The translations under genes and the position numbers were made by a program. A stretch of DNA of 64,000 nucleotides from Caproiciproducens sp. CPB-2 (GTDB lineage: Bacteria; Bacillota; Clostridia; Oscillospirales; Acutalibacteraceae), in the NCBI RefSeq assembly GCF_036287215.1, contig NZ_CP142860.1, positions 1,054,001 to 1,118,000 on the forward strand. Direction: 5' to 3'. Below are positions 49,282 through 64,000 of this stretch, piece after piece; positions within the stretch are counted from its first letter, which is position 1; every line of letters begins with the position of its first letter. The notes under the pieces were generated by a model. It was not told where the DNA came from and did no database searches. It saw only the letters and a program-made list of their open reading frames with translations.

Positions 49282-49323
49282 CATGTCATACCTCCGAAAA
49301 TAAGCGACCATTCATCATGGACA

Positions 49324-49476
49324 TTATAGGCGGGCCGCTTTTGAGAAAGCAAGTCTGAAATTGTTATTTTTAAGCTCTCTTTCGAGAAAAAAGCGGAACG
49401 ATTGGAACAGCAAAATCCGAAAGTCGTCCCCGTCCTGCGTATAACGGCAATCCACAGATATGTTATGGGCGCTCAT
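49324..49476 (-). CDS. Small protein upstream of the recombinase (50 residues)
   Basis: Starts behind a strong GGAGGTGTTTGAC site and encodes MSAHNISVDCRYTQDGDDF followed by a hydrophobic/aromatic stretch and a basic end. It is 42 bases upstream of the recombinase, likely in the same transcript. Small ORFs of this kind are common beside recombinases of clostridial integrative elements; function unknown. Confidence 0.6.
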   Translation of the reverse strand: MSAHNISVDCRYTQDGDDFRILLFQSFRFFLERELKNNNFRLAFSKAARL

Positions 49477-49550
49477 GTCAAACACCTCCTCCAGAACTAT
49501 GTTTTATAGATATGCGCGGGCGGAAATTTTTCTGCGTGTCCATAAAAGAA

Positions 49551-49584
49551 AAAGCACCGGACGTTGTGAATCCAAGTGCTTTTT
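49551..49584. terminator. Hairpin between recombinase unit and Wadjet promoter
   Basis: AAAGCAC (49551-49557) pairs with GTGCTTT (49576-49582) plus inner GGA/TCC, with A-run and T-run outside; a probable terminator. The surrounding 49485-49735 has no gene. Confidence 0.55.
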
Positions 49585-49735
49585 AATAGCTGATATCACT
49601 TATTTAATTTGGTACCGTGTAAACGCTTTTTTTAATGTGCGGTTGCGCATGGGGCCAAGCTTACACAAATATGAATAAAAATTTAAGGCAGCTGGTATGT
49701 GGGAACGTGCTCGTTTGTTTTGCCTGCCGTTTGAA

Positions 49736-49826
49736 TTGACAGTTTTTTCTTCCTGCTGTACAATTTAAGAAGAAAAATGTCGGAATATCAGAGAGCGTAA
49801 AAGACTCTGCTTGATTGCAGAGTTTT
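49736..49826 (+). promoter_or_regulatory. Promoter and leader hairpin of the Wadjet remnant
   Basis: TTGACA (49736-49741), 17 bases, TACAAT (49759-49764). In the leader, AAGACTCTGC (49801-49810) pairs with GCAGAGTTTT (49817-49826) around TTGATT; a possible attenuator. Confidence 0.75.
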
Positions 49827-49898
49827 ACTATAGGTTTAGAGAAAAGCATACCTCATTCTGCCCCATTCCAATGGTGAATCAGAAAGGTGGGATTCGAA

Positions 49899-51389
49899 GT
49901 GGCATTTCAGGCCGCACTTTTGGAGAGTATTTCTCAGACAAAGTATTTGTCTGCCGATAACTATATCCAATACAGGGCCATCATGCGCATATTCTATTTG
50001 GAATATCAAAAAATGCATTATCAGCTGGACAAGGAAACGATCTTGGTTCAGCTTCATGAAGACACCATTTTCGCCCAATATTCACCGGAACAGTTGACGG
50101 TGGATCTGGATCAGCTGGTCAATTGGAAAAATCTAACCCCAATTCAGGATCCGCATAAAGTCTATACGGTAGCCGATTTTAAGAACAGGCAATTTCAGTA
50201 TATGATGTCCCAGATAGCCTTGGAAATCGAGCGGATGACCATTACCCTGGAGAACCTCCATACCCGGACAGCGGGTCTGTCTTTCAGTGCATTCCGGCGA
50301 ATCCATGATGCGCTAAGTACGGCAACTCGTTTGGATGAATTGTCTCAAAAAGAAATCGCCGCATGGTGGCAGGATCTTCAGGAAGATTTTAGCCGTCTGA
50401 GTCAAAACCATCAGGATTATTTGCGGGAATTTTATGGACCCACTGCTGAAAAAAGCATGAAGTCCACCTCCTTCATCACTCACAAGCAACGCTTGATTCG
50501 CTATTTGGAAGAGTTTATTCAGGATTTGCAGAGCAGCTCTGCCCAGATAGCGGCCCAGCTGGAAGCTATTCCGCCAGAACAGGCAGAGCATATTGTGAGG
50601 CTTGTGCATCAAAGCCAATTGGATCTGCCACGGCCGCAATCAGAACAAAGCCCCGACTGGAAAACAGATCTTCTAAAACAGGACAAGGGTGTATGGCAGT
50701 CTTTGGTTCATTGGTTTGTTGGAGAAAATTCCACTGCCAATCAAGTTATGGAGGTTACGAACGAGATCATCCGCAGGATTGTGCAAAACGCGGCTCTTTT
50801 GGTACAGATGCAAAATATGGGCGTCAGCAAAAAAGCGGAAATTCGTCGGCTGCTTTCCCTCTTTGGCCAATGTAAGGATCTTAAAGAAGCACACAGGCTT
50901 TCTTCTCAGGTGTTTGGAGCCCAGGAAGTCAGACATTTTTGCGTCAACGCACCGCGCGATACCGAGCGAATTGACATTAGCACCTATGACGAACCTCCGA
51001 TGGAATATGCTGTTCAACCTCGCGTGCGTACGTACAAGCCCAGGATAGACAAAAGCAGTTTTTCCGACAAATCGGAGGATAAGAAGCTGCAGCGCCAGCT
51101 GATTCTTGAAGAACAGCACAGGCTGCGCCGGCTTGTGGAAGGTTATATCAAAGACGGGGTTTTGGATTTCAGCGCGATGAAAACTCCCCTCACACCAGAT
51201 ATCAGAAATATTTTTCTGTCCTGGGTAGCTGCAGCCAATCTCAGTCAGGATCATCGGGGACGAACGGAGTATGGGCAAACTTTCTCATTGAAGCGAAGAG
51301 GGGACGGGAACTGCCGACTTCCCTGTACGGATGGGATATTGACGATGCCGGACTATGTCCTGGTTTTTGAGGGTAAAGCGTATGGATGA
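49899..51389 (+). CDS. jetA: Wadjet JetA-like protein (type II, DUF2397/TIGR02677-like)
   Basis: A 496-residue, mostly helical protein, the kleisin-like subunit of an SMC-type anti-plasmid Wadjet complex. The start region ISQTKYLSADNYIQYRAIMRIFYLEYQKMH, (read in two parts) and VNWKNLTPIQDPHKVYTVADF, a winged-helix-like segment, fit the type II JetA pattern. Type assignment rests on size, order and the next two genes. GTG at 49899 follows AAAGGTGG at ten bases; a GTG at 49887 overlaps that site. It overlaps jetB by eight bases. Base composition is more AT-rich than the neighbouring chromosome. Confidence 0.78.
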   Translation: MAFQAALLESISQTKYLSADNYIQYRAIMRIFYLEYQKMHYQLDKETILVQLHEDTIFAQYSPEQLTVDLDQLVNWKNLTPIQDPHKVYTVADFKNRQFQYMMSQIALEIERMTITLENLHTRTAGLSFSAFRRIHDALSTATRLDELSQKEIAAWWQDLQEDFSRLSQNHQDYLREFYGPTAEKSMKSTSFITHKQRLIRYLEEFIQDLQSSSAQIAAQLEAIPPEQAEHIVRLVHQSQLDLPRPQSEQSPDWKTDLLKQDKGVWQSLVHWFVGENSTANQVMEVTNEIIRRIVQNAALLVQMQNMGVSKKAEIRRLLSLFGQCKDLKEAHRLSSQVFGAQEVRHFCVNAPRDTERIDISTYDEPPMEYAVQPRVRTYKPRIDKSSFSDKSEDKKLQRQLILEEQHRLRRLVEGYIKDGVLDFSAMKTPLTPDIRNIFLSWVAAANLSQDHRGRTEYGQTFSLKRRGDGNCRLPCTDGILTMPDYVLVFEGKAYG

Positions 51390-52545
51390 ACTGCGTTCTC
51401 TTCTGGATCGGTTTTGGATTATCAAGAGTCAGGACAAACAGCTTTATTTTGATGTGAAACGTGCTCTGCCGCAGTACCGCCGTTTCGTTAATGAGCTTTT
51501 GGGCTGGAATCTCATTGTCAATGAATCCGTCATTAAATTGGAAAAGGTGCCGCCCCGGTCGATGCCATGGATGGGGATAGAGAGCTTTACCGACACCATG
51601 GATTATTGTTTGCTTTGCGCATTGCTTCTCTATTTGGAGGATCTGGATGACGGAGAGCAGTTTTTGCTTTCGTCTCTGACCGAAGCCATTGAAACCTATA
51701 TGACCGGGTTCTGCCCAGTGGACTGGACGAAATATGTCCATCGGAAGTCTCTGGTTCGGGTTCTTTTGTATGTGCAGAGCATGGGACTGCTTGTGGTCTA
51801 TGATGGAAACAGCGAAGGCTTTGGGAACAAGCAGGACCAGGAAGTGCTCTATGAAAACACTGGGCTTTCTCGGCATTTTCCCGTTCACTTTGGCCGGGAC
51901 ATCTCGGATTGCCTGACCGTTGAAGATTTCGAGGCTTTTTCTTGGGGTGAGGACGGCGAACGGGGGCGGCAGCGGATTAACCGCGTCTATCGCCAGCTGA
52001 CCTTGGCTCCCGCGCTTTACTGGTCGGAGGGGGATCGGGCTGATTACGAGTATGTCAAAAATCAGCGGCAGTGGCTGGAGAAAAATCTGGACAATGCTCT
52101 GGGTGGAGAATTGCATATCCACAAAAACGGGGTCTTTTTTGTGTTCAATGAAGATTCTCCTTTTGGCGTTTGCCATCCCAGGGATTTAGCCCTTTCAGAT
52201 GTGGCCCTTCTTTTATGCTCGCTCATCCGTGAACGGGTAACGCGCGGAGAGATTGATCGGCGTGAGGATGATATGATTGTTCTGACGCATCGCGAATTCC
52301 GACACCTGGTGAATACATGCAAAGAAAGCAACGGATGCGGCTGGGGCAAGCAGCTTCGCGAGCTTTCTCCAGACAAGCTCTATCAGGAGCTGCTTACATA
52401 CATGGAAAGTTGGATGCTTGCTGAAGACCATGGTGATTATCTGTTGATTTGTCCCGCGGCCGGTAAGTGGACTGGCAACTTTATAAAAGGTTTCAGCGGG
52501 AATCGGAAAGGGGCGCAAGAGGATGGATCGATGGAAAATGCATAG
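51382..52545 (+). CDS. jetB: Wadjet JetB-like protein (type II, DUF2398/TIGR02678-like)
   Basis: A 387-residue protein, the KITE-type subunit that binds JetA and JetC. Features of the family: an N-terminal KRALPQYRRFVNELLGW, a VIKLEKVPPRSMPWMG motif, LLCALLLYLEDLD, and HRKSLVRVLLYVQSMGLL. ATG at 51382 overlaps the jetA stop; its end overlaps jetC by 23 bases, so the three genes are translationally coupled. It appears intact. Confidence 0.82.
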   Translation: MDELRSLLDRFWIIKSQDKQLYFDVKRALPQYRRFVNELLGWNLIVNESVIKLEKVPPRSMPWMGIESFTDTMDYCLLCALLLYLEDLDDGEQFLLSSLTEAIETYMTGFCPVDWTKYVHRKSLVRVLLYVQSMGLLVVYDGNSEGFGNKQDQEVLYENTGLSRHFPVHFGRDISDCLTVEDFEAFSWGEDGERGRQRINRVYRQLTLAPALYWSEGDRADYEYVKNQRQWLEKNLDNALGGELHIHKNGVFFVFNEDSPFGVCHPRDLALSDVALLLCSLIRERVTRGEIDRREDDMIVLTHREFRHLVNTCKESNGCGWGKQLRELSPDKLYQELLTYMESWMLAEDHGDYLLICPAAGKWTGNFIKGFSGNRKGAQEDGSMENA

Positions 52546-52975
52546 GCTTGGATTCGTGAATTTCTGGCTCTATGACGTAGAAGAATTTGACCTTGAAGAT
52601 GGGCATATTTTACTGCGCGGCGCCAATGCTTCTGGCAAGTCTATCACAACTCAGAGCTTTATCCCATTTTTGCTGGACGGTAATAAAAGTCCTGAACGGT
52701 TGGATCCGTTTGGGTCACGAGACAGGCGAATGGATTTTTACTTGCTGGGAGACGGTGAGCGGGAGGAATCCACTGGCTACCTATACTTGGAATTCAAGAA
52801 AAAAGGGTTGGAAGAATATCTTACCATCGGTGTTGGGATGCGGGCACAAAAAGGGAAAAATATTGATTTCTGGGGCTTTTGCCTGTGCGATGGAAGAAGG
52901 ATCATTCCGTCGCAAGTTCAGCTTTATCAAACTGTTGGTAGCATAAACGGTTTGCCGGTTAAGCAAACGCCATAG
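52523..52975 (+). pseudogene. jetC: Truncated Wadjet JetC-like SMC ATPase
   Basis: N-terminal fragment of an SMC-like ATPase. The first 130 residues are convincing: FVNFWLYDVEEFDLEDGHIL, Walker A GANASGKS at residues 33-40, then FIPFLLDGNKSPERLDPFG and GYLYLEFKKKG. Type II JetC proteins are typically far longer (over 1,000 residues, with coiled coils and a C-terminal ABC half). Here the family similarity stops near 52915 and a stop follows at 52975; no coiled coil, signature motif or Walker B remains, and no jetD follows. The complex should not assemble a working ATPase. Confidence 0.85.
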
Positions 52976-53321
52976 GAATTTCACCTCTCCGTGGTTCTCA
53001 CCGAGCCGTCCCCATTGCTTGAGTCTGTGGCTGGACGGAAGTAGCGTTAGCACTGTCCGTTTCATTGCGAAACAGCCCACCACGGGCTGTTTTATAACCG
53101 GGCCTTGCCGCTCGTCGCCTTCGATGCCATCGGTTCGACGGATGTCTGTCACCCATCCGCAGGTAGTCTTGGCGCGCCCGTTATTGTCGCTGCCGCTCAT
53201 CACGGCCGGACAGATCATGTATTTATGCTGCCGGATATGAAATTTTCAAGGAGCAACGAGGGAATAGAAAAACCCCCTCACTTATTTCCACGTTGAGCGA
53301 GGGGGTTGAGCGGAAATTTTT
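52976..53321. other. Mobile-element debris downstream of truncated jetC
   Basis: No convincing gene. It contains a terminator AAACAGCCC-ACCAC-GGGCTGTTT (53070-53091 plus T) for the jet transcript and a second one, AACCCCCTC (53271-53279) with GAGGGGGTT (53299-53307), followed by a T-run on the minus strand, ending the small sigma-like gene. A minus-strand open frame over 52781-53218 overlaps jetC codons and is probably a decayed mobile-element sequence. Confidence 0.5.
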
Positions 53322-53531
53322 TTACTTTTCCATAAATTTTTTCAATTTCTCCAGGATTCTTATCTTCCGGCCGTGAATGGATCGCTGCGGAACGCCGATT
53401 TCTCTGGACACCTGCCGCTCACTTTTGCCTTTGAAAAACAGAGCAGAGATCAACTCCTGTTCCTCCGTGCTGAGATGCTTGAGGTGGGTCAGCATTTTTT
53501 CGATCATCACAGCCTTAATTGCCTTTGTCAT
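53322..53531 (-). CDS. Short sigma-70 region 4-like protein
   Basis: 69 residues forming a helix-turn-helix of sigma region 4 type (LSTEEQELISALFFKGKSERQVSREIGVPQRSI, read in two parts). It matches the last two-thirds of the 149-residue protein at 56282-56731 almost residue for residue. The start is the ATG at 53531, after GGAG; an out-of-frame ATG lies four bases upstream. Probably a truncated mobile-element regulator; may still bind DNA or be inert. Confidence 0.7.
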   Translation of the reverse strand: MTKAIKAVMIEKMLTHLKHLSTEEQELISALFFKGKSERQVSREIGVPQRSIHGRKIRILEKLKKFMEK

Positions 53532-53671
53532 TCATGGAAAAACTCCTTTCTATTTGTTATAATTTAGTTTGTTTAGCAGGAGAAATTAACAAGAAATTGA
53601 TATGTTATCAATATTGACAGTTAGGTCAGTTTACAAGGAACTACACACAAACCGCAAAATGGACTGCTGAA

Positions 53672-53721
53672 AACAAAGCGGCGATATGCTCCCGGAGAGG
53701 GTGACATATCGCCGCTTTGTT
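53672..53721. repeat. Perfect 17-base inverted repeat
   Basis: AACAAAGCGGCGATATG (53672-53688) and its exact complement (53705-53721) with a 16-base loop. Located between the short sigma-like gene and the MarR promoter in element debris (53532-53965, otherwise no gene seen). Confidence 0.7.
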
Positions 53722-53965
53722 GTTGGTGATTCCAAGGGTGATTGCCCCTTGGACCACGACTTTTCGAAGCAAAGTTGTGCTATACGCTCTGTCAGCGTCG
53801 CCGCTTCAGTGCTCATTACCGTCGTGGAAAACAAGGGTATTTGAAGCGACAGGAAAACGAACAGGGCATAGATGGAGACTCCCGTCTTTTGTTCAACCTC
53901 AACCTCGGCCAACTTGGCCTGAAATTCAATCGGACAATAAGAAACATTCAATCCAGCAAAAAATT

Positions 53966-54023
53966 AGATAGGTACCTTGACATATCCGGCGAATCGTGTA
54001 TAATGTGTTATAGATAGGTACCT
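53966..54023 (+). promoter_or_regulatory. MarR promoter with duplicated operator
   Basis: TTGACA (53977-53982), 16 bases, TATAAT (53999-54004). The 12-mer AGATAGGTACCT occurs at 53966-53977 and again at 54012-54023, flanking the promoter. Each contains the palindrome AGGTACCT; likely MarR sites for autorepression. Confidence 0.75.
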
Positions 54024-54047
54024 AACCATAATAAGAGGAGAATCATA

Positions 54048-54671
54048 ATGGACGATAACAATAGCAAACAGAAGGATGAATGTTTCATCATTTCCCCAGA
54101 TGAACTACTGTTTATTCTGAGCCAGTTCATCAGGCTGTACCAGAAAAAAATGTACCGTGCAAGGCTTCCTTATGTGCCTTATCGGGGCCAGAACCGGGTG
54201 TTGCACATCATCGCGGATAATGATGGCCTGAACCAGAAGGAGCTTGCAGAGCTTCTTGACATCCGTTCCGCATCCATGTCCGAGCTTTTGAACAAGCTTG
54301 AGAAATCAAATCTGATCACACGGGAAAAGGATGAGATGGATAAACGGGTCACACGGGTCTTTTTATCGACCGCAGGGCGCGAACTTGTAAATGGTTCACA
54401 AGATCAGGGAAATTTTGCGGAAATGCTTTTTGAAGGATTGTCTGACGAAGAAAAATACACATTTTACACCATCTTGAAGAAGCTTTGCGCCATATTTGAA
54501 GCGCAGGCGTTGCTTGTGGGTGAAGATGATGACGAATCCCTGCCCCCGCATTTAAGGGGAGATCACATGCCGCCTCCACCGCCGGAAGAAGGGCCTGTTC
54601 CTCCTCATTTACGGAGAGACCCGCCCGGTCCGCCGAAAAATGGGCCGCTTCCGCCTCATCTGAGAAGATAA
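54048..54671 (+). CDS. MarR-family regulator with proline-rich repeat tail
   Basis: A 207-residue regulator. Residues about 1-150 form the winged helix (recognition segment NQKELAELLDIRSASMSELLNKLEKSNLI, read in parts, and wing KDEMDKRVTRVF). The last 40 residues are a low-complexity tail with three copies of PPHLR(G/R), separated by Pro-rich runs; such a tail is unusual in the family and may be for protein contact or metal binding (His, Asp, Glu). RBS AAGAGGAG. The permease gene follows after 170 bases. Confidence 0.9.
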   Translation: MDDNNSKQKDECFIISPDELLFILSQFIRLYQKKMYRARLPYVPYRGQNRVLHIIADNDGLNQKELAELLDIRSASMSELLNKLEKSNLITREKDEMDKRVTRVFLSTAGRELVNGSQDQGNFAEMLFEGLSDEEKYTFYTILKKLCAIFEAQALLVGEDDDESLPPHLRGDHMPPPPPEEGPVPPHLRRDPPGPPKNGPLPPHLRR

Positions 54672-54844
54672 CCAATTAATCCGTACCATCAGAACCAATT
54701 GGAAACTGAACCGTTCGAGTGATTCCATAAAAATACAGTTTGGAAATTGCAGTTCATATTATCTTTTTTCGGCTATATTCCGTATAGCCTGGTAATTTGT
54801 ACGCCTTTTTCAGCAATCATAAAATTCCACAGGAGGTAGAACAT

Positions 54845-56092
54845 TTGAAAACTTGCATGAAAACAAGCGATCCCAAACAGTCGGCCGGTTCAAAAGAGGT
54901 GTCTGCCGTCCATCCGGAAAGGGCCGCTTTTACTCGCTTATCTTTGATCCAGATTCCCATCCGGAGCCTTTTCGTGCGGATATGGAGAACGATTCATCAT
55001 GAGTTTACAGAGCATACACTCTTTTCCGTTTCCCTGATTGTTGCAGCTATCACCTCTTGTTTCAGCAAGCCCCAATGGGGCTATATTGACGTGAAAGTGC
55101 TTGTCTGCCTATTCGAGCTGATGTTGATCGTAAAGGCGTTGGAGGAGTATGGACTTCTTGGACACATCGCCGTAAACATCGTGAATCGCTGCCGGGACGA
55201 AAGGCGGTTGACAATAGGTCTGTGTGTAATTTCATTTCTGCTCTCAATGTTCACTACGAACGACGTCGCGATTCTGACGGTTATCCCCATTCTGATCATC
55301 ATCGCGCAAACATGCGGTTTTTCCGCCGCCGTTTCCTGCGTACTGGTTACCGCCGCGGCCAGTCTGGGAAGCAGCACGACCCCGATCGGCAATCCACAGA
55401 ACCTTTACATCTTTTCGTTTTACAGGATGAGTCCGACATCCTTTTTCAGAGATTCCTTACCCTTATGTTTTATAAGTCTGCTTCTGCTGACGGTGTCATG
55501 TCTGCTTATCCGGCCCCAAAAAATCCAGACTAAGCTTGACGGCATTCCTGTTACCGAAAAGAAAAAGGTGACGGCGTTCCTCTTGCTGGCGGTTCCGGTG
55601 ATTGCCGGTGTTTTGAACCTGATCCCTTATGAGTTTACTCTTTTGCTCGTGTTGGTGATCGCCATTATTTTAGACAGGGCTTTGATACGCAAGCTGGATT
55701 ACCGGCTTCTGCTGACTTTTTTATTCCTGTTCGTTGCAGTGGGCAATATTTCTCATATGCCCGAATTGAAAGGACAATTAGCGGCACTTACAGCCACTCC
55801 ATTCAAAACGTATGTATCCGCGCTTTTTCTGAGTCAAATCATCAGCAATGTCCCCAGTACAGTCATGCTTGCGCCGTTTACTACCCATATGCGTGAATTG
55901 TTTTACGGTGTCAATATTGGCGGGCTTGGTACTCCTATTGCCTCACTCGCCAGCATCATCGCATATTCATTGTTCTGCCGAACTTTTGCACAAAAGAAGC
56001 TTCAATTCATTCGTGCCTTCCTGATTTACAATTTTATCTTGCTCATTGTTCTGGGCGCCGTGTTTGCTGTTGTTATTATCGCCAAAATGTAA
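54845..56092 (+). CDS. SLC13/ArsB-like anion permease
   Basis: A 415-residue integral membrane protein with about ten to eleven helices, preceded by a basic cytoplasmic tail of about 60 residues. The motif TTNDVAILTVIPI and the re-entrant loop LGSSTTPIGNPQN are typical of the ion-transporter superfamily covering ArsB, NhaD and citrate/dicarboxylate carriers. Substrate is not predictable. The TTG at 54845 is chosen because AGGAGG lies eight bases upstream. Downstream of the MarR gene, which may control it. Confidence 0.85.
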   Translation: MKTCMKTSDPKQSAGSKEVSAVHPERAAFTRLSLIQIPIRSLFVRIWRTIHHEFTEHTLFSVSLIVAAITSCFSKPQWGYIDVKVLVCLFELMLIVKALEEYGLLGHIAVNIVNRCRDERRLTIGLCVISFLLSMFTTNDVAILTVIPILIIIAQTCGFSAAVSCVLVTAAASLGSSTTPIGNPQNLYIFSFYRMSPTSFFRDSLPLCFISLLLLTVSCLLIRPQKIQTKLDGIPVTEKKKVTAFLLLAVPVIAGVLNLIPYEFTLLLVLVIAIILDRALIRKLDYRLLLTFLFLFVAVGNISHMPELKGQLAALTATPFKTYVSALFLSQIISNVPSTVMLAPFTTHMRELFYGVNIGGLGTPIASLASIIAYSLFCRTFAQKKLQFIRAFLIYNFILLIVLGAVFAVVIIAKM

Positions 56093-56281
56093 TTACGTCC
56101 ATGTGTTAAGCCATAAAGTTGGTCAAACAAATTGTCCAAGTACATCGGAGAAAAATCAACTTTACCAACGCTGATCCGTATGGCCTGACCGAAACAATTG
56201 AACTGCCAGTTCATAAGAGAATACAGCCCTCTTAATTTCGGTTCCCCTTCGCCTTTCTGCAGCGAGGGGGAGCCGGGAACT

Positions 56282-56731
56282 TCATTCATTCATAAGTCTT
56301 TTTAATTTCGCCAGGATTTTTATCTTCCGGTCGTGAATGGTTCGTTGGGCGATACCTGTTTCTCTCGACATCTGATGCTCACTTTTATCATCGAAAAAAA
56401 AAGTAGTGATCAATTTTTGTTCCTCCGGGCTGAGATGATTGAGGCAGGTTAGCATTTTTTCGATCATCACGGCCTTAATCACGGCATCGTCCACATCCTC
56501 GTCAGCAACGGCGAATTGCCTGTTTTCCTCCAGAAGCCGTTCATAGGAATCCTCTCGGCTGGGGATATATGTAACGGTGCCGCTGACAGAATCGATCCGG
56601 CATCGCTCAACTTTGATGTCATACTGCAAGTATTCCATCTGACGGTCGCTTTTTTCTAAAACCTCGATGATCTCTCTGCTTACATCAGGATACTTCTCCT
56701 GGTAATTTGTCTTTTTCTGATATTTTGTCAT
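56282..56731 (-). CDS. Sigma-70 region 4-like regulator (149 residues)
   Basis: Full-length relative of the 69-residue protein at 53322. The N-terminal 75 residues are helical and charged; the C-terminal part is a region 4-like helix-turn-helix with LSPEEQKLITTFFFDDKSE and TGIAQRTIHDRKI. Such proteins occur on integrative elements in Firmicutes, often as regulators of excision genes; their role is not settled. A G-rich stem-loop at 56238-56273 follows the gene. RBS AATGGAGG. Confidence 0.8.
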   Translation of the reverse strand: MTKYQKKTNYQEKYPDVSREIIEVLEKSDRQMEYLQYDIKVERCRIDSVSGTVTYIPSREDSYERLLEENRQFAVADEDVDDAVIKAVMIEKMLTCLNHLSPEEQKLITTFFFDDKSEHQMSRETGIAQRTIHDRKIKILAKLKRLMNE

Positions 56732-56884
56732 AAGGCTTGTCCTCCATTTCGTGATTGTTGAAATCCGGAAATGAAGAACGAGCGGCGGTGAACGGCAACA
56801 AGGCTTTTTTATCTCGCGGATAAAGGACGCAAAAATAGACTCGAAATTTAAATTTATTGCATTCTTTTTAAGACTTTGTGTCGA

Positions 56885-56936
56885 AAATAAAAAATCAGCA
56901 CTCTGCCCATATAAACAGAGTGCTGATTTTTTATTT
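56885..56936. terminator. Strong bidirectional terminator
   Basis: A perfect 21-base inverted repeat (56885-56905 and 56916-56936) with ten-base loop; T-runs on both strands. On the minus strand it closes the riboswitch unit about 150 bases before the sigma-like gene. Confidence 0.9.
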
Positions 56937-56969
56937 ACCGCAACAATATATTTAGTCGGGGAGATGTCT

Positions 56970-57005
56970 TTATTTTGACCTCCCCAAATTACCAGAGCAG
57001 ACCAT
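56970..57005 (-). CDS. Eleven-codon ORF in the riboswitch transcript
   Basis: ATG behind AAAGGAG encoding MVCSGNLGRSK. Located between the riboswitch terminator and the strong terminator. A hairpin (CTTTCGCC with GGTGAAAG) ends in the ribosome site, and the site plus start codon can also pair with sequence inside/after the ORF. It may be a true mini-protein, a remnant of a longer gene, or a regulatory ORF. Confidence 0.35.
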   Translation of the reverse strand: MVCSGNLGRSK

Positions 57006-57088
57006 AAAGACTCCTTTCACCGAAGGCATGGCGAAAGACGCACAATTTTTAAAGACTTAATGTGGCAAGCTCGGTAAATAACAAAAGA

Positions 57089-57112
57089 CTGCCCTCATAA
57101 TTAAGAGGGCAG
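57089..57112 (-). terminator. Terminator of the riboswitch expression platform
   Basis: CTGCCCTC and GAGGGCAG form an 8-base stem around TTAATTAT, followed in minus orientation by TCTTTTGTTATTT. It lies ten bases past the aptamer, in the usual place for riboswitch-controlled termination. Confidence 0.75.
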
Positions 57113-57121
57113 CCCTATTAT

Positions 57122-57212
57122 AGAGCTTCCGGCAGCCAGGCTATCATAGTGTGTTAATGCACCTTAGATCCTGCGGCTTTGCGTCCCCACCTTTGGGTGG
57201 GTTTGCCCTTGG
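57122..57212 (-). ncRNA. Cyclic di-GMP-I riboswitch (GEMM-I)
   Basis: Read on the minus strand, the sequence contains the GEMM-I signature blocks AGGGCAAACC, a short GC stem with a CAAA loop, GGGACGCAAAGCC, the receptor-like GGATCTAAGG, and a final AGCC-TGGCTGCCGG stem. These match the known consensus (GGGCAAACC ... GGGACGCAAAGCC ... CUAA ... GGUAGCGG). The aptamer lies about 100 bases after the last gene of the alkylation operon. It is followed by a terminator, an 11-codon ORF and a second terminator, so the regulated target is unclear. Confidence 0.85.
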
Positions 57213-57310
57213 CTTTATTTATTTTCTGTTGTGCTTTTGCATATCCCATTGCTTATTTGAATAAAAAGGATTGCTTCTCGTAAGTTCTTTGCGGTTTTCA
57301 ATCACTTCCT

Positions 57311-58249
57311 TTAAAGCAGGCACATTTGGCCATCACAAATGGATTTCATATCTTTTTCACTAATTTGTACCCCTTGCGGTAATACACCAAATAAAAGGGG
57401 AGAGTTTGGGTCATGGTCCGCAATATGCCTTCGGACGTTTTTCTCCGAAGAAGTTGCGTAGCAATAGCGGCATTCATGTGGGCAGCAGTCGTAAGAACCG
57501 ATGTCGACACTCTCCACACACCCACAGCCAGGCCTCTGGTTGGAATCTTTCCGAACATGGATTGGACAACCAAGAATTTTTTCAATCATGCCGGCGTCGA
57601 TGCAGGATGCATGATTGATCCCGTACTGAGACAAATCTATCGGTTCACAACAGGTAAATAGCTGCAGACAGTGTCTTCGGGCGATTTCCGAGAATGCCTC
57701 TGCCAGCTGATACATATCTGCCTTTTGCATTTCAATGGCACCCATTTTTTGCAGAGTTCCTCTCACTTTGGGGTAAAAATCAAGGAAACTGAAAATACAA
57801 CGGTGTGTCATACCATCCAGCGCCGCCGCCATCTGTTCAAAACAGCGCGCGTGATATTCAACCGGCATTTCACGCGAAAGGATTACCGGGTCGTACCGCC
57901 ACACCACTTGATCCGGCCCCAATATTTGACTTAGGCTGCAAAAAGTGCGAATCAGTTCAGTTTTTGGCGGCAGGTTCCGCTCAATTTCCTTCCCATAGGG
58001 GGTCAGGGTAAATTGGAAATAGAACGGATACCCCAACTCGGAAATCTTCCCGAGTTTTGGCAGCATTGTTTTCGGGTTCTTTGTCCAGAACACGAGGCAG
58101 TCCACCGCGCTCCGGTTCAACGCCACCTTGCTGAACCGAAGCGGATTTCGTGGGTTCGGGACCAATACATAACCCGCTTTCAGTCGATTCAGCAGCCATT
58201 CGGAGTAAAAGGCCGGAATATCGGTGCGGCGGCTTGCACTGACGATCAT
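57311..58249 (-). CDS. DUF1848 protein (copy A)
   Basis: A 312-residue protein of the DUF1848 family: N-terminus VSASRRTDIPAFYSEW, then FWTKNP and WRYDPVILS segments, which suggest a TIM-barrel-like fold. The C-terminal region has GCGCVES and then C256, C260 and C263 in a CxxxCxxC pattern (CPHECRYC) followed by YA, which could ligate a [4Fe-4S] cluster. Radical SAM enzymes use the same spacing, though at the N-terminus. Function unknown; co-translated with adaA by a four-base overlap. Last gene of the alkylation operon. Confidence 0.88.
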   Translation of the reverse strand: MIVSASRRTDIPAFYSEWLLNRLKAGYVLVPNPRNPLRFSKVALNRSAVDCLVFWTKNPKTMLPKLGKISELGYPFYFQFTLTPYGKEIERNLPPKTELIRTFCSLSQILGPDQVVWRYDPVILSREMPVEYHARCFEQMAAALDGMTHRCIFSFLDFYPKVRGTLQKMGAIEMQKADMYQLAEAFSEIARRHCLQLFTCCEPIDLSQYGINHASCIDAGMIEKILGCPIHVRKDSNQRPGCGCVESVDIGSYDCCPHECRYCYATSSEKNVRRHIADHDPNSPLLFGVLPQGVQISEKDMKSICDGQMCLL

Positions 58250-58809
58250 CGGTTATCACTCCCGTGTGCGGACGATTCCCGGTATTCCATCGGGGAAACT
58301 CCAGTGACACGCCGAAACTGTGTGTAAAAGGTGGAGAGGCTCTCGAAACCACTTTGTAGCGCAATCTGTAAAACGTTGTCTTGCGTCTCAGCCAGCAGTT
58401 GTTTTGCTTCGGATATGCGCAGTTCGTTCCAGTATTCCGTCAGACTCTTTCCATACTGTGCCTGAAACACTTGAGCAACACGGTTTCGGCTGAGGCCCAG
58501 TTGTTTCAACTCCGCCTTAAATCTGGGATGATCCGCATACCAGTGGTCGCAGACGGCTTTGATTTTCTCGGCGGCCTCTTTCTGCGGCTGGAACTCCAAC
58601 AAGTCAGGACGACAGCGCTTACAGGGGCGAAGCCCGCTTTTTCGGGCTTCCTCCGCCGTATCAAAAAAGACAACGTTTTCCCTTTTCGGACTTTTTGACC
58701 GACAGGAAGGACGGCAGAAGATTCCCGTCGTCTTCACACCGTAGAAAAATCTGCCATCACAAGCAGTGTCACAGGCCAAAGACGCCTGCCACTTTTCTTC
58801 GTCCGTCAT
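58246..58809 (-). CDS. adaA: AdaA-like methylphosphotriester sensor and activator
   Basis: A 187-residue protein that joins an Ada zinc domain to an AraC-type helix-turn-helix. The four-cysteine set is clear: FCRPSC (including the acceptor) and PCKRC; the DNA-binding half contains LSRNRVAQVFQAQYGKSLTEYW and SGFESLSTFYTQFRR. Ada proteins transfer methyl groups from phosphate to cysteine and then activate their regulon, so this is probably the activator of the operon. Start at 58809 follows AAAGGAG. Confidence 0.95.
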   Translation of the reverse strand: MTDEEKWQASLACDTACDGRFFYGVKTTGIFCRPSCRSKSPKRENVVFFDTAEEARKSGLRPCKRCRPDLLEFQPQKEAAEKIKAVCDHWYADHPRFKAELKQLGLSRNRVAQVFQAQYGKSLTEYWNELRISEAKQLLAETQDNVLQIALQSGFESLSTFYTQFRRVTGVSPMEYRESSAHGSDNR

Positions 58810-58841
58810 CTCTTGTCGCTCCTTTCGGGTTTGTCTTTCCA

Positions 58842-59345
58842 TTACTTTAGTTTGTCCACAGGAACTTTCTCCAACTGTAACAGCCGAATTTTCTTTTCTA
58901 TGCCGCCCGCATATCCGGTGAGGCTGCCGTCAGAACCAATCACTCGGTGGCAAGGGATCAGGATAGAGATCGGATTGTGTCCGACCGCGCCGCCTACGGC
59001 CCGCGCGGAGGTATGGACGCCGATTACGTTTAGCCGCCTGACAATACTTCCGTATGTGATCACCGTACCGTATGGAACGTCTTGTAGAATTTTCCATACG
59101 GACTGCCGGAATTCGCTTCCCTTCGGTTCAAGCGGAATAGAAAAATTCGGCTCTTTTCCGCTGAAATAGATTGCCAGCCATTCCTGCACCCGGTCGAAAA
59201 GCGGGAGGTTTTTCTCCCCGGCATGTACGTCTAGTGTAGCGGCGTAGCATTTTTGTCCTTCCAGCCAGAGGCCTGTGATGGACCGATCGTTTCCCGAAAC
59301 GGTCAGCTGGCCTAATGGGGAAGGAATGCGGCAGATTGCGTCCAT
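58842..59345 (-). CDS. ogt: Methylated-DNA--protein-cysteine methyltransferase (copy 1)
   Basis: Suicide enzyme that removes methyl from O6-methylguanine. The 167-residue product has the helix-turn-helix region with YGTVITYGSIVRRL, the active-site IPCHRVIGSDG near residue 131, and the closing GYAGGIEKK. The ATG at 59345 follows GGAGAGA. Fourteen bases after alkD and 32 before adaA. Confidence 0.96.
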   Translation of the reverse strand: MDAICRIPSPLGQLTVSGNDRSITGLWLEGQKCYAATLDVHAGEKNLPLFDRVQEWLAIYFSGKEPNFSIPLEPKGSEFRQSVWKILQDVPYGTVITYGSIVRRLNVIGVHTSARAVGGAVGHNPISILIPCHRVIGSDGSLTGYAGGIEKKIRLLQLEKVPVDKLK

Positions 59346-59359
59346 CAAAAATCTCTCCT

Positions 59360-60046
59360 TCAAACTTTTCGTTTCATTGCACGAATCCGGCTTTTTGTTT
59401 CCTTATTTACCTGCAGGGATTCCGTGATTTTCTGCAAGGCTTTATTATAAGTGACGTCATCCAGATGATTGTCGGACAAATAGGTCATCGTCTCTTTCGG
59501 AAAACGGACAAAACAGATGGATACCGCCCACGCGACAGCCATTTTTACATAATAACCGTCATTCTGCACCGCGTCCAGTATGCGAAAAACATCCGAAAGC
59601 CGACTTTCGTCAATAAAATAGAAAAGCAGCATCACAACAGCAAAACGGACTTCAAACTCCTTTTTTGATGTCAAATACGGCTGCAGAAAAATCCACGTTT
59701 GTTCGCGGTATTTCTTCACAAATTTCAGTCCCGAGCAAAAGCTGTCGCAAACCGACCAGTTGTCAATTTTGGGGACAAAAGTCTGAATCAGCCGAAACCG
59801 CTCCTCGGGCTCACAATCCGCATAACCAATCACCATGCCCTGCAGCATGATTTCTTCAAAAGAATCTTCCTCTGCCGTACGGAGAAATCCGCGCCAGTCC
59901 TCTTTTGTCAGCCGTAGTGCAAGCCTGCGCAACTGCGGCAGGCGGACGCCAAGCACATGATCTGTTTTTGGAAGGAGACCGGATGAAAAGATACGGTATT
60001 TTTCATCCGACAGTTGTTCAAGCTCCTGTCTAATTTTATTTTGCAT
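59360..60046 (-). CDS. alkD: AlkD-family DNA alkylation repair protein
   Basis: HEAT-like repeat DNA glycosylase for N3/N7-alkylpurines, 228 residues, built of about six helical pairs. Family markers include VRLPQLRRLA, FEEIMLQGMVIG, VPKIDNWSVCDSFC and VMLLFYFID. The Trp and Asp residues in KIDNWSVCD fit the AlkD active-site cleft. Start 60046 follows AAGGAGGCAACTC. Confidence 0.93.
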   Translation of the reverse strand: MQNKIRQELEQLSDEKYRIFSSGLLPKTDHVLGVRLPQLRRLALRLTKEDWRGFLRTAEEDSFEEIMLQGMVIGYADCEPEERFRLIQTFVPKIDNWSVCDSFCSGLKFVKKYREQTWIFLQPYLTSKKEFEVRFAVVMLLFYFIDESRLSDVFRILDAVQNDGYYVKMAVAWAVSICFVRFPKETMTYLSDNHLDDVTYNKALQKITESLQVNKETKSRIRAMKRKV

Positions 60047-60081
60047 GAGTTGCCTCCTTCCACCTTCGGATCACTAAAAAT

Positions 60082-61020
60082 TTATGTATCGATATTTGGT
60101 ATTTGGTTGCGACTTTTTTCTTTCCGACTAATATGATTCGATAGGATCAGTCCCAGAATAGCAATAGCGCATCCGACCCACTGTGCGGCGGAAAGCTGCT
60201 CTTTTAGTAAAGCCCAGGCTGTGATGAGGCCAAACACCGGTACAAGAAGAGATAAAGGCGCAACTTTTCCAGCCGGATATCTGGACAACAGGGAACTCCA
60301 AACGCCATATCCGAACAGCGTGGCCAGTAAGGAAAGATAAAGTATGGAGAATACTGTGAACGGCGTAATGGTATAGAGTGCCTGCCAGATTTTCGTCGGT
60401 GAATCTGCCAGAAACGCGGCGGCTAACATTGGGAGCGGGGGCACCAGGCTGGACCATACAACCAAACTGAACATATTCAGATTTTTTCCCTGCCTGTGGG
60501 CCTCATCGGAGGCACGGCGCACAACAATATTGGAAATTCCCCAGAAAAAAGCCGCCAACAGGGTAAGAGCAAGTGCACTGGATGGAATGGTAGAGACGCC
60601 TCCGACACAGATTCCCCCACTGATGAGGACTAAACCTATGGCAGCCACGAATAATCCTACCGCCTGGTTTGCCCGGATGCGCTCCCGAAAAAAAACACCT
60701 GCCAGCAAAATCGTGAAAAGCGCCTGAGACTGCAACATAACCGATGCCACACCGGCCGGCATTCCGATATGTTCCGCATAAAACAGGCAGGAAAACTGCC
60801 CCACTCCGACAGTCAGGCCATAAGCGACGAGATATTTCCAACTGATATCCGGACGCTTGACGAAAAAGACAGCGGGAACCGCCGCAAAAATATAGCGTAA
60901 AGCCACAAGCAGCATAGGGGGGAGCGAACTCACGCCGAATTTAATAACCGTAAAATTGATTCCCCACAGCACGACTACAAGAAGAGCAAGAAATTTGTCA
61001 CGCGGTTTCATCGGCTGCAT
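60082..61020 (-). CDS. EamA/DMT-family transporter
   Basis: A 312-residue membrane protein with ten helices in two EamA repeats (about 12-140 and 155-300), of the RhaT/YdcZ-type drug/metabolite superfamily. Repeats begin with FLALLVVVLWGINFTVIK and LAAFFWGISNIVVRR. Exporters of this family move amino acids, metabolites or drugs; the substrate cannot be read. Its start overlaps the preceding unknown gene by 13 bases. Confidence 0.93.
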   Translation of the reverse strand: MQPMKPRDKFLALLVVVLWGINFTVIKFGVSSLPPMLLVALRYIFAAVPAVFFVKRPDISWKYLVAYGLTVGVGQFSCLFYAEHIGMPAGVASVMLQSQALFTILLAGVFFRERIRANQAVGLFVAAIGLVLISGGICVGGVSTIPSSALALTLLAAFFWGISNIVVRRASDEAHRQGKNLNMFSLVVWSSLVPPLPMLAAAFLADSPTKIWQALYTITPFTVFSILYLSLLATLFGYGVWSSLLSRYPAGKVAPLSLLVPVFGLITAWALLKEQLSAAQWVGCAIAILGLILSNHISRKEKSRNQIPNIDT

Positions 61021-61502
61021 CCTTCTTCCTCTGCAGCCAACGACCGACTTGAGAAGCTTTGTGCGCGTTTGCCGCGCTTGACTGTCAACTCCAGTTTTTT
61101 AAGTTCCTCATATGCTTGTCTCACTGTCTCCCGAATAGCCTCCGCTTTGGCTTCTGGAATCTGCTTTTGAAAAACCTCGGCTGCCGCTGAGGCATAGTCC
61201 GCCCTGTGTTTTGCATTTAGACATCTCCAGTTAATTCCTCGAAAACACCCGGCGATTTCCGGGTTCATTGGAAGCTTTCCCTGCAGCATCAACACTGCCA
61301 GAATCGGGTAGCCCGGATACCCCTGCCAGTAGGTCGCGTTGTCACCGGAAGAATAAGTGTTCCCTTGCCAGACGACCTTATAGGCTTTGGAGCCGTCCGA
61401 TGAGACGACTTCGGCTTCTCCCTCCCGCAGACTCACGCGTCCGTCTGCGATTGCACTGTAAGCTTCATATAATTTTTCTATTGGCGGCAGTTTTCCCGTC
61501 AT
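61008..61502 (-). CDS. Unknown protein in the alkylation operon
   Basis: A 164-residue protein without a recognised family. It is soluble and helical, with a central conserved-looking segment TYWQGYPGYPILAVLMLQGK, a CFRGINWRCLN pair of cysteines, and a lysine/arginine-rich C-terminus. It might be a DNA- or nucleic-acid-associated protein. RBS AGGAGTGG; it overlaps the permease gene by 13 bases. Confidence 0.75.
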   Translation of the reverse strand: MTGKLPPIEKLYEAYSAIADGRVSLREGEAEVVSSDGSKAYKVVWQGNTYSSGDNATYWQGYPGYPILAVLMLQGKLPMNPEIAGCFRGINWRCLNAKHRADYASAAAEVFQKQIPEAKAEAIRETVRQAYEELKKLELTVKRGKRAQSFSSRSLAAEEEGCSR

Positions 61503-61559
61503 ACAACCACTCCTATTTTCGTTGTGCAATGCAGAACCTTTCCCATCGGCTGCCGCATT

Positions 61560-62495
61560 CTACCGGTGGGCAGATTGTTTCTCCGGTAAAAGAAACGACT
61601 TTTGAGCACCCGCTTCCAGACGGTCAGTGGGCTTCAGGCGGCCGATCAGCAGAGGAGACATGGGATCGTGAAGACGATAATTTTCTAAAGGAAGCTGTGA
61701 ATTTTTGTTCGCGTAACAGTATTTACAGCCGTTAGGACAGCTATTGAGCGCTCCGAGATCCCGACTTTCTATGCAGTGACACCCTTCACGAAATCCGCGG
61801 TGCTTGAGTTTACGGAACTGAATGCCATTTGCGCGTCCTAAGATGTCTAGGGTAACGCAACCGGAAGTTTCAATCCCATACCCGGCATAATTTTCTTCCG
61901 GGCCGCAGGTCTGGATGGGAATGCCGTATTTCGCCGCGATTGCACCAAGGCCCCGGGCCAGCGCATCCTTGTCCTCTTCCCGCAGCGGGACCAGTTCCGG
62001 AAAATTCACCTCGTGCTTTTTATACATCTCTACAAAGCTGAAAATACAGCGGTCCACATGGCCCGCCAGCCGTTTCGCCATCGACTCAAAGGTTTCGAGG
62101 TGGCGGGCGACAGTATATTTTTTTGTGAGAAGCACAGGGTCATACCGCCACGCAATGCGTTTGGCTCCGACAATTTCAGCAAGTCGCAGCAGGGTGGCAA
62201 TGCTTGTGTCAATATCCGGGACTCCGGGTTCGACATCCCGGCCGTAGGCGGTAATCGTATAATAAAAATAAGTATGGAACCGTTCCGTGATCGTATGGAT
62301 ACGGTCTAAAACAGGCGCAAAATTTTTTGACCCGAAAATGACGCAGTCCACCTGATCCGGCGTTAGTTCGTAGCGACGCACCGAGTTGGGAAAAAGAGAG
62401 TTCCGCGAAAAGGCGTAGCCTTCTTCAAACCGGCGGAACATCCAGTCCGAATAGTGGTTTACAATGTCGGTTCGTCCGCTGATATTGATGATCAT
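61560..62495 (-). CDS. DUF1848 protein (copy B)
   Basis: A 311-residue paralogue of copy A: N-terminus INISGRTDIVNHYSDW, WRYDPVLLTK and a C-terminal GCHCIES followed by C253, C257 and C260 (CPNGCKYC, then YA). The two copies are well diverged, so this is not a recent duplication. The ATG at 62495 follows AAGGAGG and overlaps the upstream glycosylase stop by four bases. Confidence 0.88.
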   Translation of the reverse strand: MIINISGRTDIVNHYSDWMFRRFEEGYAFSRNSLFPNSVRRYELTPDQVDCVIFGSKNFAPVLDRIHTITERFHTYFYYTITAYGRDVEPGVPDIDTSIATLLRLAEIVGAKRIAWRYDPVLLTKKYTVARHLETFESMAKRLAGHVDRCIFSFVEMYKKHEVNFPELVPLREEDKDALARGLGAIAAKYGIPIQTCGPEENYAGYGIETSGCVTLDILGRANGIQFRKLKHRGFREGCHCIESRDLGALNSCPNGCKYCYANKNSQLPLENYRLHDPMSPLLIGRLKPTDRLEAGAQKSFLLPEKQSAHR

Positions 62496-63403
62496 CCGCC
62501 CGCCTCCTTGCTTTTTTGCGAGTTCTTCCACGCGGCGTACTCTTTCGGCATACAGACCGCGCAGGGACGGTACCCAGCCGCAACAGCCGTTTTTTCGTCC
62601 GCAAAAAACACACGGCTTTTTACATACTGCCCTTTTGCAATCGCGCGCAGAGCGGAAGGGCAGTCCAACCGTCCGTAAATTTTATTTTTACGGTGCCCGC
62701 CCAGGGTCCCTTTTTCTTCGCTCAGATAGGGCTTTCCATCCGTACCGATCAGCGTGTATTCTTTCTTACATTCCATATCTTTTGCTCCTAGAAAGGAAAT
62801 TTTCCACAGATAGATGGAAGCCACCGAGCCGTATGGTGAATACCGTGACCGGCACAGATCGAATTGCTTTCGTGTCAGCTTCGGAAAACCATACAGCTTT
62901 TCCATGCCGCGGCGGATGGCAACGTCACCCCAGCTGACAACGTCGGGCCGCTCCATACAGTTGAGAAGCAGCATCTCCGCGGTCCACGGTCCGACACCCC
63001 GAATTCGCGTCAGGCGGTGAACCACCTCCGCGTCCGAAAGATTCCGCAAATCATCCAGCCGGATACTTCCATAACAAATGTTTTCAGCCAGTTCCGAAAT
63101 GCAAACCGCTTTTTTCATGGTCATACCGCAATGCTGAATATCGTCTGCCGAAACAGAGGACAGGTTCTTCGGTGAAATGTCGCTGAACCTGTCCTGCATG
63201 CGGCCCCAGATCGTGTTTGCGGAACGGACGGAGACCAGCTGACCGATCACGGCATAAACGAGCGCCGCGAATACATCCGGAATGACTACACGTTCCACCC
63301 GTCCGAGCCGCGCGATGGCCGAGCCGAGAACCGCGTCTGAGGCAGAAAGGTATGCTACTTCTTTAGACCCATAATCGAAATATTTGGTTTTAACGGTTCG
63401 CAT
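62492..63403 (-). CDS. AlkA-type DNA glycosylase fused to an Ada-like metal-binding domain
   Basis: A 303-residue protein in two parts. Residues about 1-205 are a helix-hairpin-helix glycosylase: LTRIRGVGPWTAEMLLL is the HhH-GPD motif, followed by the catalytic aspartate in DVVSWGDVAIRR. Residues about 215-300 resemble the Ada zinc region: CPSALRAIAKGQ, VFFADEKTAVAAGYRPCAVC; only three cysteines are obvious, so metal ligation is uncertain. The predicted role is to excise 3-methyladenine and related bases. Start overlaps the upstream ogt by 14 bases. Confidence 0.85.
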   Translation of the reverse strand: MRTVKTKYFDYGSKEVAYLSASDAVLGSAIARLGRVERVVIPDVFAALVYAVIGQLVSVRSANTIWGRMQDRFSDISPKNLSSVSADDIQHCGMTMKKAVCISELAENICYGSIRLDDLRNLSDAEVVHRLTRIRGVGPWTAEMLLLNCMERPDVVSWGDVAIRRGMEKLYGFPKLTRKQFDLCRSRYSPYGSVASIYLWKISFLGAKDMECKKEYTLIGTDGKPYLSEEKGTLGGHRKNKIYGRLDCPSALRAIAKGQYVKSRVFFADEKTAVAAGYRPCAVCMPKEYAAWKNSQKSKEAGG

Positions 63404-63860
63404 GAGTCCGTTCCAGCTTCAGAAGCTGTTCTTTTCGTTCCAGCCCGCCCGCGTAGCCGACCAGCCCGCCGTCGGAACCAACGACTCGATGGCACGGCGT
63501 TAAGATCAAAATCGGATTTTTATTGTTCGCCATGCCTACGGCACGCGACGCCGACGGGCGACCGATGCTTTTCGCAACCTGCCCGTAGCTCCGGGTCTCT
63601 CCGTACGGAATGCTCCGCAGCGCCGCCCAAACGGTTTTTTGAAACTCCGTCCCCTCCGCTCTGAGCGGCAAGTCAAAGGCCTTGCGGATTCCGGAAAAAT
63701 ATTCCGAAAGCTGGCGCTCCGCTTCCTTCAACAAGGGCGTTTTCGGCGTAACGGCAGTCTCCGGCGGATCGTCCGTGAAGGACAGACCCGTAATGGTGTC
63801 GTTCGCGGCAGTGATCAAAACCAGACCCAGTGGGGTTGAAATTTTTGCCGTATCTTTCAT
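63390..63860 (-). CDS. ogt: Methylated-DNA--protein-cysteine methyltransferase (copy 2)
   Basis: A 156-residue O6-methylguanine repair protein with YGETRSYGQVAKSIGRP, the active site TPCHRVVGSDG near residue 120 and GYAGGLERK. First gene of the nine-gene alkylation operon. RBS AGGAGGCG. A TAATAT at 63886-63891 (minus) may be its -10. The last 140 bases of the window otherwise show no feature. Confidence 0.95.
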   Translation of the reverse strand: MKDTAKISTPLGLVLITAANDTITGLSFTDDPPETAVTPKTPLLKEAERQLSEYFSGIRKAFDLPLRAEGTEFQKTVWAALRSIPYGETRSYGQVAKSIGRPSASRAVGMANNKNPILILTPCHRVVGSDGGLVGYAGGLERKEQLLKLERTHANR

Positions 63861-64000
63861 TTGTATCGCCTCCTGATATACTCCTATATTACCCGTCTTT
63901 TATCCGCATGTCTTCCGATTTTGCACTATCTAATTTTCAGCATCTCGTTACGGTATGAATGAGCCCCTTTGTTATATCAACGACTAATCGTTAGGACACT

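Follow-up and report, generated by a model that had tools for sequence, protein, structure and literature searches.

What is a DUF1848 protein doing directly behind adaA in an operon of alkylation repair genes? The question arises from a 64,000-nucleotide stretch of the Caproiciproducens sp. CPB-2 genome (NCBI RefSeq assembly GCF_036287215.1, contig NZ_CP142860.1, positions 1,054,001 to 1,118,000 of the forward strand; hereafter the window), in which nine consecutive open reading frames (ORFs) occupy minus-strand positions 63860 to 57311: ogt2, an AlkA-type glycosylase fusion, DUF1848-B, gene X, an EamA-family permease, alkD, ogt1, adaA, and DUF1848-A (Table 1). All nine were confirmed with the expected Pfam domains, so that the original prediction of nine tightly spaced minus-strand genes holds, with the correction that ogt2 is preceded, at a distance of 152 bases and just outside the window, by a tenth gene. 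The locus has the components of an Ada-type operon, namely a four-cysteine Ada sensor with an AraC-type helix-turn-helix, Ogt with its PCHR motif, and alkylpurine glycosylases. We consider it reasonably probable that this is an Ada-type response operon in which DUF1848-A is a permuted radical S-adenosylmethionine (SAM)-like enzyme acting on alkylated nucleic acid. The host is probably an anaerobe.

Linkage of DUF1848 to Alkylation Repair Genes

A total of 189 DUF1848 loci was compared, of which 40, 15, and 54 (including L278) came from genome samples and 80 from genome contigs; these 80 were the best of 581 confirmed matches, which biases them toward DUF1848-A, and many of the 189 loci end at contig borders. 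Profiles made from the window genes and their first matches placed Ogt, AlkD, AlkA, or AdaA within 3.5 kb of DUF1848 in just 16 of the 189 loci (L124 and L309 are one contig judging by length, and L099, with Ogt at 3,533 bases, was left out of the count). Neighbors unrelated to DNA repair at most loci were what the original prediction had named as counting against a role of DUF1848 in alkylation resistance, and for the family as a whole that role is refuted. The repair gene lies on the same strand as DUF1848 in 15 of the 16 linked loci, and on the opposite strand, at 3 kb, in L332.

The linkage is confined to one part of the family. In a tree of 175 sequences, including the two from the window (after clustering at 90% identity, with two short sequences dropped), a clade of 39 [Shimodaira-Hasegawa approximate likelihood ratio test (SH-aLRT) 92] contains DUF1848-A together with every one of the 14 further linked sequences. 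Excluding the window, same-strand Ogt, AlkD, AlkA, or AdaA was found within 3.5 kb for 14 of the 38 relatives in this clade versus none of 135 outside it (Fisher p 8e-10 when DUF1848-B is entered as linked but outside the clade; the clade was picked among 11 nested groups after their counts were known). Independently of the choice of clade, the linkage label changes 8 times on the tree, compared with 15.6 times in shuffles, none of 500 of which was as low. A smaller tree built earlier from 135 rows had a single group of 37 (support 80) that took in 12 of the 13 linked rows. DUF1848-B belongs to a different clade, and the other 15 rows of its supported set of 16 are unlinked; the proposal that both DUF1848 proteins serve alkylation resistance has support for DUF1848-A and not for DUF1848-B. 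The rest of DUF1848, outside the DUF1848-A clade, is not to be read as alkylation repair. Just one clade-diagnostic position (L93) passed the cut.

Linked hosts include Tissierella, Propionispora, Eubacteriaceae, Oscillospiraceae, Gilliamella, and a Neisseriaceae metagenome-assembled genome; the sequences of the last two are close in the tree and may reflect one transfer. The gene order varies. With adaA, the orders ogt-alkD-adaA-DUF1848 (L079), ogt-adaA-DUF1848 (L080), and adaA-ogt-DUF1848 (L316) were found, and without it ogt-alkD-DUF1848 (L123, L147), ogt-alkA-DUF1848 (L124), ogt-DUF1848 (L037, L097), and alkD-DUF1848 (L152, L326, L328, and also L098, with ogt after it). DUF1848 comes first in L081, where ogt follows at 870 bases, and in L166 of the same genus (G403), which reads DUF1848-ogt-alkD. 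DUF1848 directly follows adaA in L079, L080, and the window, in all three with a 4-bp overlap, and 4-bp overlaps join alkD to DUF1848 in L098, L147, and L328. Partners that are kept despite a reshuffled order are as expected from shared function. DUF1848-A is the one extra, putative enzyme that recurs beside Ada-type genes.

The idea that the window operon consists of two parallel modules stands in part. Two modules that are each attested elsewhere seem to have been joined in it, its halves resembling L124 (ogt-alkA-DUF1848) and L079 (adaA, ogt, and DUF1848, with alkD; the same three also in L080 and L316), the part that does not fit being DUF1848-B, which is not of the linked clade. Because DUF1848-A and DUF1848-B share 33% identity and the ogt1 and ogt2 products 39%, the halves are parallel in content without recent duplication.

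In the phylum sample 59 of 199 genomes had DUF1848 matches (57 above the cut-off), and in the class sample 62 of 291 did (60 above it); among near relatives the count was 11 of 60, and in the order of the Gilliamella record 5 of 99 genomes. Within the genus, 3 of 10 other genomes have DUF1848, one of them linked to repair genes. The 199 genomes likewise led us to reject an alkylation role for the entire DUF1848 family: with the window's own genome excluded, 1 of 45 full-length matches (L037) had a repair neighbor. This count came from phmmer searches that used the proteins of the window (40 + 5 matches), and weak AraC-type matches of adaA (L035, L057, L063) and of the CRP-AdaA fusion (L051) were left out of it. 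AlkD and DUF1848 matches near each other were seen by eye in these genomes only in the window's own. Operonic immediate neighbors numbered 117 from 135 loci, and among the 109 scanned with Pfam (8 short or near-copy ones were omitted by hand) the commonest families were DNA_alkylation and NUDIX, with 4 members each among the 25 of 110 families listed.

A second partner of DUF1848 emerged outside the alkylation clade, a protein family encoded directly 5' of DUF1848 in L036, L041, L044, L107, L118, L136, L141, and L148 (perhaps also L120). It spans three phyla, overlaps DUF1848 by 4 bp in 5 of the 8 loci, and by eye has a cysteine-rich N-terminus and a methyltransferase-like glycine motif; two members tested had no Pfam match. 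DUF1848 relatives are also encoded on 19 IMG/VR contigs (L346-L364). DUF1848 (also as PF08902, pfam08902, IPR014998, or RTasDUF1848) was not mentioned in the literature searched, and no earlier account tying it to alkylation repair turned up there (PMC10853773 and PMC10332631 were among the papers checked).

DUF1848-A as a Probable Permuted Radical SAM-Like Protein

Across 238 DUF1848 sequences essentially no variation is seen at seven cysteines, and three of them (C256, C260, and C263; fraction 1.0, rounded) form a C-terminal CX3CX2C, the cluster motif of radical SAM enzymes. The polar residues K57, E90, W117, R118, and D120 are near-invariant in the same alignment, which suggests an active site. 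DUF1848-A is predicted by its structure model to fold as a triose-phosphate isomerase (TIM)-type (beta/alpha) barrel, and radical-SAM folds top the VIA list for this barrel, aligned from residues past their own cysteine motif. In DUF1848-A (312 residues) the motif spans residues 256-263, following the barrel strands and not standing at the canonical N-terminal position. The predicted barrel aligns best with radical-SAM enzymes, and we read the motif as relocated to the C-terminus by circular permutation.

Comparison with a COG1533/spore photoproduct lyase-type profile, using 112 of the 120 listed relatives, gave two local matches in swapped order and no collinear match, with scores of 57.9 for the motif block and 33.8 for the barrel block against a maximum of 22.5 in 100 column shuffles. 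DUF1848 resembles these radical SAM proteins (PF20903, PF04055) in its CX3CX2C with C.HGC.YCYA surroundings, its TIM-type barrel, and the local profile matches, and differs from them in the C-terminal instead of N-terminal motif and in four further invariant cysteines. PF04055 and PF20903 did not match DUF1848-A at E <= 0.01, PF08902 being its only match, and sequence searches of the PDB with DUF1848-A gave no significant match. Against the radical SAM loci of this genome the DUF1848 profile reached at best E 0.04, rotated or not, and the gain in profile score on rotation was not robust. The barrel is a prediction, and iron-sulfur (Fe-S)/SAM chemistry and permutation are what we infer.

Proposed Role and Alternatives

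Judging from the domains, AdaA would sense methylphosphotriesters in DNA and switch the genes on, and a CRP-AdaA fusion encoded upstream, by the tenth gene, probably senses them too. The two Ogt proteins would take off O6-alkyl groups and the AlkA-type and AlkD-type glycosylases would excise N-alkylpurines, in keeping with established family functions. DUF1848-A would act on an alkylated nucleic-acid lesion left by these enzymes, and DUF1848-B may be a distant paralog recruited into this operon, possibly to deal with a different lesion; both the substrate and the regulation of the operon are what we infer. The arrangement resembles the Ada regulons of Escherichia coli (ada-alkB, alkA) and Bacillus subtilis (adaA-adaB, alkA) in combining an Ada-type sensor-activator, Ogt, and an AlkA-type glycosylase, here in one tight operon, while the window operon differs in adding AlkD, two Ogt proteins, and a second, CRP-fused AdaA-type sensor. 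DUF1848 sits where E. coli has alkB. If the proposed role is true, it would extend the use of radical SAM chemistry in DNA repair, known from spore photoproduct lyase, to a permuted scaffold. Our result singles out the DUF1848 clade that merits study, and Propionispora sp. 2/2-37 and Tissierella simiarum MSJ-40 are named strains in which it could be tested.

AlkB-type dioxygenases need oxygen, and Ogt, AlkA, and AlkD leave 1-methyladenine and 3-methylcytosine largely unrepaired. HemN for HemF is a precedent of oxygen-independent replacement. DUF1848-A might be an oxygen-independent counterpart of AlkB, a circularly permuted radical-SAM protein that demethylates 1-methyladenine and 3-methylcytosine and goes with AdaA in the way that alkB goes with ada in E. 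coli, an assignment that we regard as improbable. The 4-bp overlap between adaA and DUF1848-A recalls the ada-alkB operon. The AlkB family (PF13532) had no match in the nine operon proteins or the own genome, and was absent from all 12 linked genomes tested (linked G1052, G520, and G378 lay outside this test) and from the complete phylum sample of 199 genomes. We tried this absence as support for the role of DUF1848 and found it uninformative: because AlkB is missing from the whole phylum sample, it marks a gap in the repair of both lesions and no correlation with DUF1848. DUF1848-A resembles AlkB, a 2-oxoglutarate/Fe dioxygenase of different fold and cofactor, at most in its place in an Ada-type operon. 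A radical-SAM-like family that recurs beside Ada, Ogt, and AlkD is a concrete candidate for anaerobic repair of the two lesions. AlkB and O6-alkylguanine-DNA alkyltransferase (AGT) homologs are reported to reverse streptozotocin damage as self-resistance (PMC9040887).

It is equally improbable, in our view, that DUF1848 is a mobile accessory enzyme, for defense or for modification of RNA or DNA, whose repair neighbors reflect clustering in islands and not shared function. The PADLOC model RTasDUF1848 (DRT), a partner of defense reverse transcriptases and of the same protein family, matches both DUF1848-A (E 2.5e-48) and DUF1848-B (E 5e-35), relatives occur on the viral contigs mentioned above, most sampled DUF1848 loci have other neighbors, and a truncated Wadjet system and a putative serine recombinase lie ~5-10 kb from the operon. 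The nine-gene operon holds repair genes and no reverse transcriptase. Against this reading, the linkage is limited to one clade and, in 15 of 16 loci, to the same strand, with 4-bp overlaps and reshuffled orders.

Still less probable is a competition or self-protection island in which the operon, the EamA permease as an exporter, and an upstream UvrA-like protein resist one specific genotoxic natural product. The permease lies inside the operon, the UvrA-like ABC protein is encoded ~2.9 kb upstream of ogt2, and UvrA-like proteins, AlkB/AGT, and glycosylases are reported as resistance proteins in genotoxin clusters (PMC9040887). On the other hand, inspection by eye of the ORFs within window 48000-64000 and ~7.5 kb upstream revealed no recognizable biosynthetic genes (no dedicated cluster tool was run), and linked loci elsewhere carry plain Ada-type genes. 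Furthermore, among 120 DUF1848 loci the permease had a single match (L066) and gene X none, so that the original suggestion that these two genes take part in resistance is not supported; they are probably passengers or accessory genes. Gene X was confined to its own genome among the 398 and 295 genomes searched, had no relative in the viral contigs or plasmids searched, and showed no clear PDB fold and no significant match in a PDB sequence search. A competitor's natural product as the target, as once proposed, is neither supported nor excluded by the genes in the stretch read.

A role for DUF1848-A as a regulator of the Ada response, or as an Fe-S sensor for it, and not as an enzyme on DNA would suit its place immediately after adaA in L079, L080, and the window, but is very unlikely given that DUF1848 also adjoins alkD or ogt without adaA and that the predicted barrel with its near-invariant polar residues suggests an active site.

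Organization of the Operon

Table 1. Features of the operon and its surroundings (window positions unless stated otherwise).
Feature	Position	Strand	Remarks
ogt2	63390..63860	-	O6-alkylguanine-DNA alkyltransferase, PCHR motif; PF01035 E 1e-35, PF02870 E 2e-7
AlkA-type glycosylase fusion	62492..63403	-	HhH-GPD glycosylase + C-terminal Ada_Zn-like domain; PF00730 E 1e-9; PF02805 E 1e-6, partial
DUF1848-B	61560..62495	-	311 aa; PF08902 304 bits (scored from longer GTG start); ATG start by eye
Gene X	61008..61502	-	164 aa; precomputed Pfam PF27709.1
EamA-family permease	60082..61020	-	PF00892 E 1.5e-38
alkD	59360..60046	-	AlkD-type DNA alkylation repair glycosylase; PF08713 E 8e-16
ogt1	58842..59345	-	second O6-alkylguanine-DNA alkyltransferase; PF01035 E 2e-31; ATG 59345 by eye, with an alternative in-frame TTG at 59363
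adaA	58246..58809	-	Ada-type methylphosphotriester sensor/AraC-type activator; PF02805 (Ada_Zn) E 1e-31, PF12833 (HTH_18) E 1e-23
DUF1848-A	57311..58249	-	312 aa; PF08902 357 bits; candidate permuted radical-SAM-like protein
CRP-AdaA fusion (tenth gene)	genome 1118013-1119263 (L003:2013-3263)	-	cNMP_binding + HTH_Crp_2 + Ada_Zn + HTH_18 (Pfam)
UvrA-like ABC protein	L003:4712-6985	-	757 aa; UvrA_DNA-bind E 2e-6
c-di-GMP-I riboswitch	57217-57128	-	76.7 bits
Terminator-like stem	57116-57085		
Type II Wadjet genes	49887-52975	+	JetA2, JetB2, truncated JetC2
pemK RNA match	52970-53050	-	

The preferred starts of DUF1848-B (ATG 62495), gene X (ATG 61502), ogt1, and adaA (ATG 58809; ATG 58842 is also in frame) were picked by eye, and ribosome-binding-type stretches precede the later starts of ogt1, adaA, and gene X. 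With these starts all intergenic gaps are <=57 bases; with the longer starts of ogt1 and adaA and gene X shortened to 61490, the largest gap within the nine genes is 69, before gene X. Overlaps join ogt2 to the glycosylase gene (14 bp), the latter to DUF1848-B (4 bp), gene X to the permease gene (13 bp), and adaA to DUF1848-A (4 bp), and both DUF1848 genes start in an ATGA overlap.

The four Ada cysteines of AdaA are present by eye. The Ada_Zn match of the glycosylase fusion covers profile positions 20-64 of 65, and because the first cysteine of the AdaA CxxxC pair is missing by eye, this domain is probably no methyl acceptor. The top NCBIfam match of the fusion, DNA-3-methyladenine glycosylase 2, is under that model's cut-off, as is that of the permease, an O-acetylserine/cysteine exporter (NF008523, 259.6 bits, cut-off 472). 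The C-terminal part of the fusion also weakly matches PADLOC PDC-S40. Gene X had no match in our own Pfam scan of the nine operon proteins.

Surroundings of the Operon

The CRP-AdaA fusion, with four Ada cysteines by eye, is a possible second sensor for the operon. The same-strand genes upstream (stretch L003) also include, from their Pfam domains, an iron alcohol dehydrogenase and a GntR/UTRA regulator, and a hairpin with 13-bp arms lies between the genes for the dehydrogenase and the fusion. Promoter-like sites were near chance (8 vs 5.1, sd 2.3, and 4 vs 5.5 in shuffles). Terminator-like sites numbered 9 versus 7.0 in shuffles upstream, and 23 versus 8.2 (sd 2.9) on both strands of window 57000-64000, mostly inside genes. 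The c-di-GMP-I riboswitch is directly downstream of the last operon gene and is followed by the terminator-like stem.

Farther away, ~5-10 kb from the operon, an ORF resembling a serine recombinase by eye accompanies the truncated Wadjet system. JetA2 and JetB2 are nearly full-length model matches, the JetC2 match reaches just position 141-145 of about 1,360, and the pemK RNA match lies at this break.

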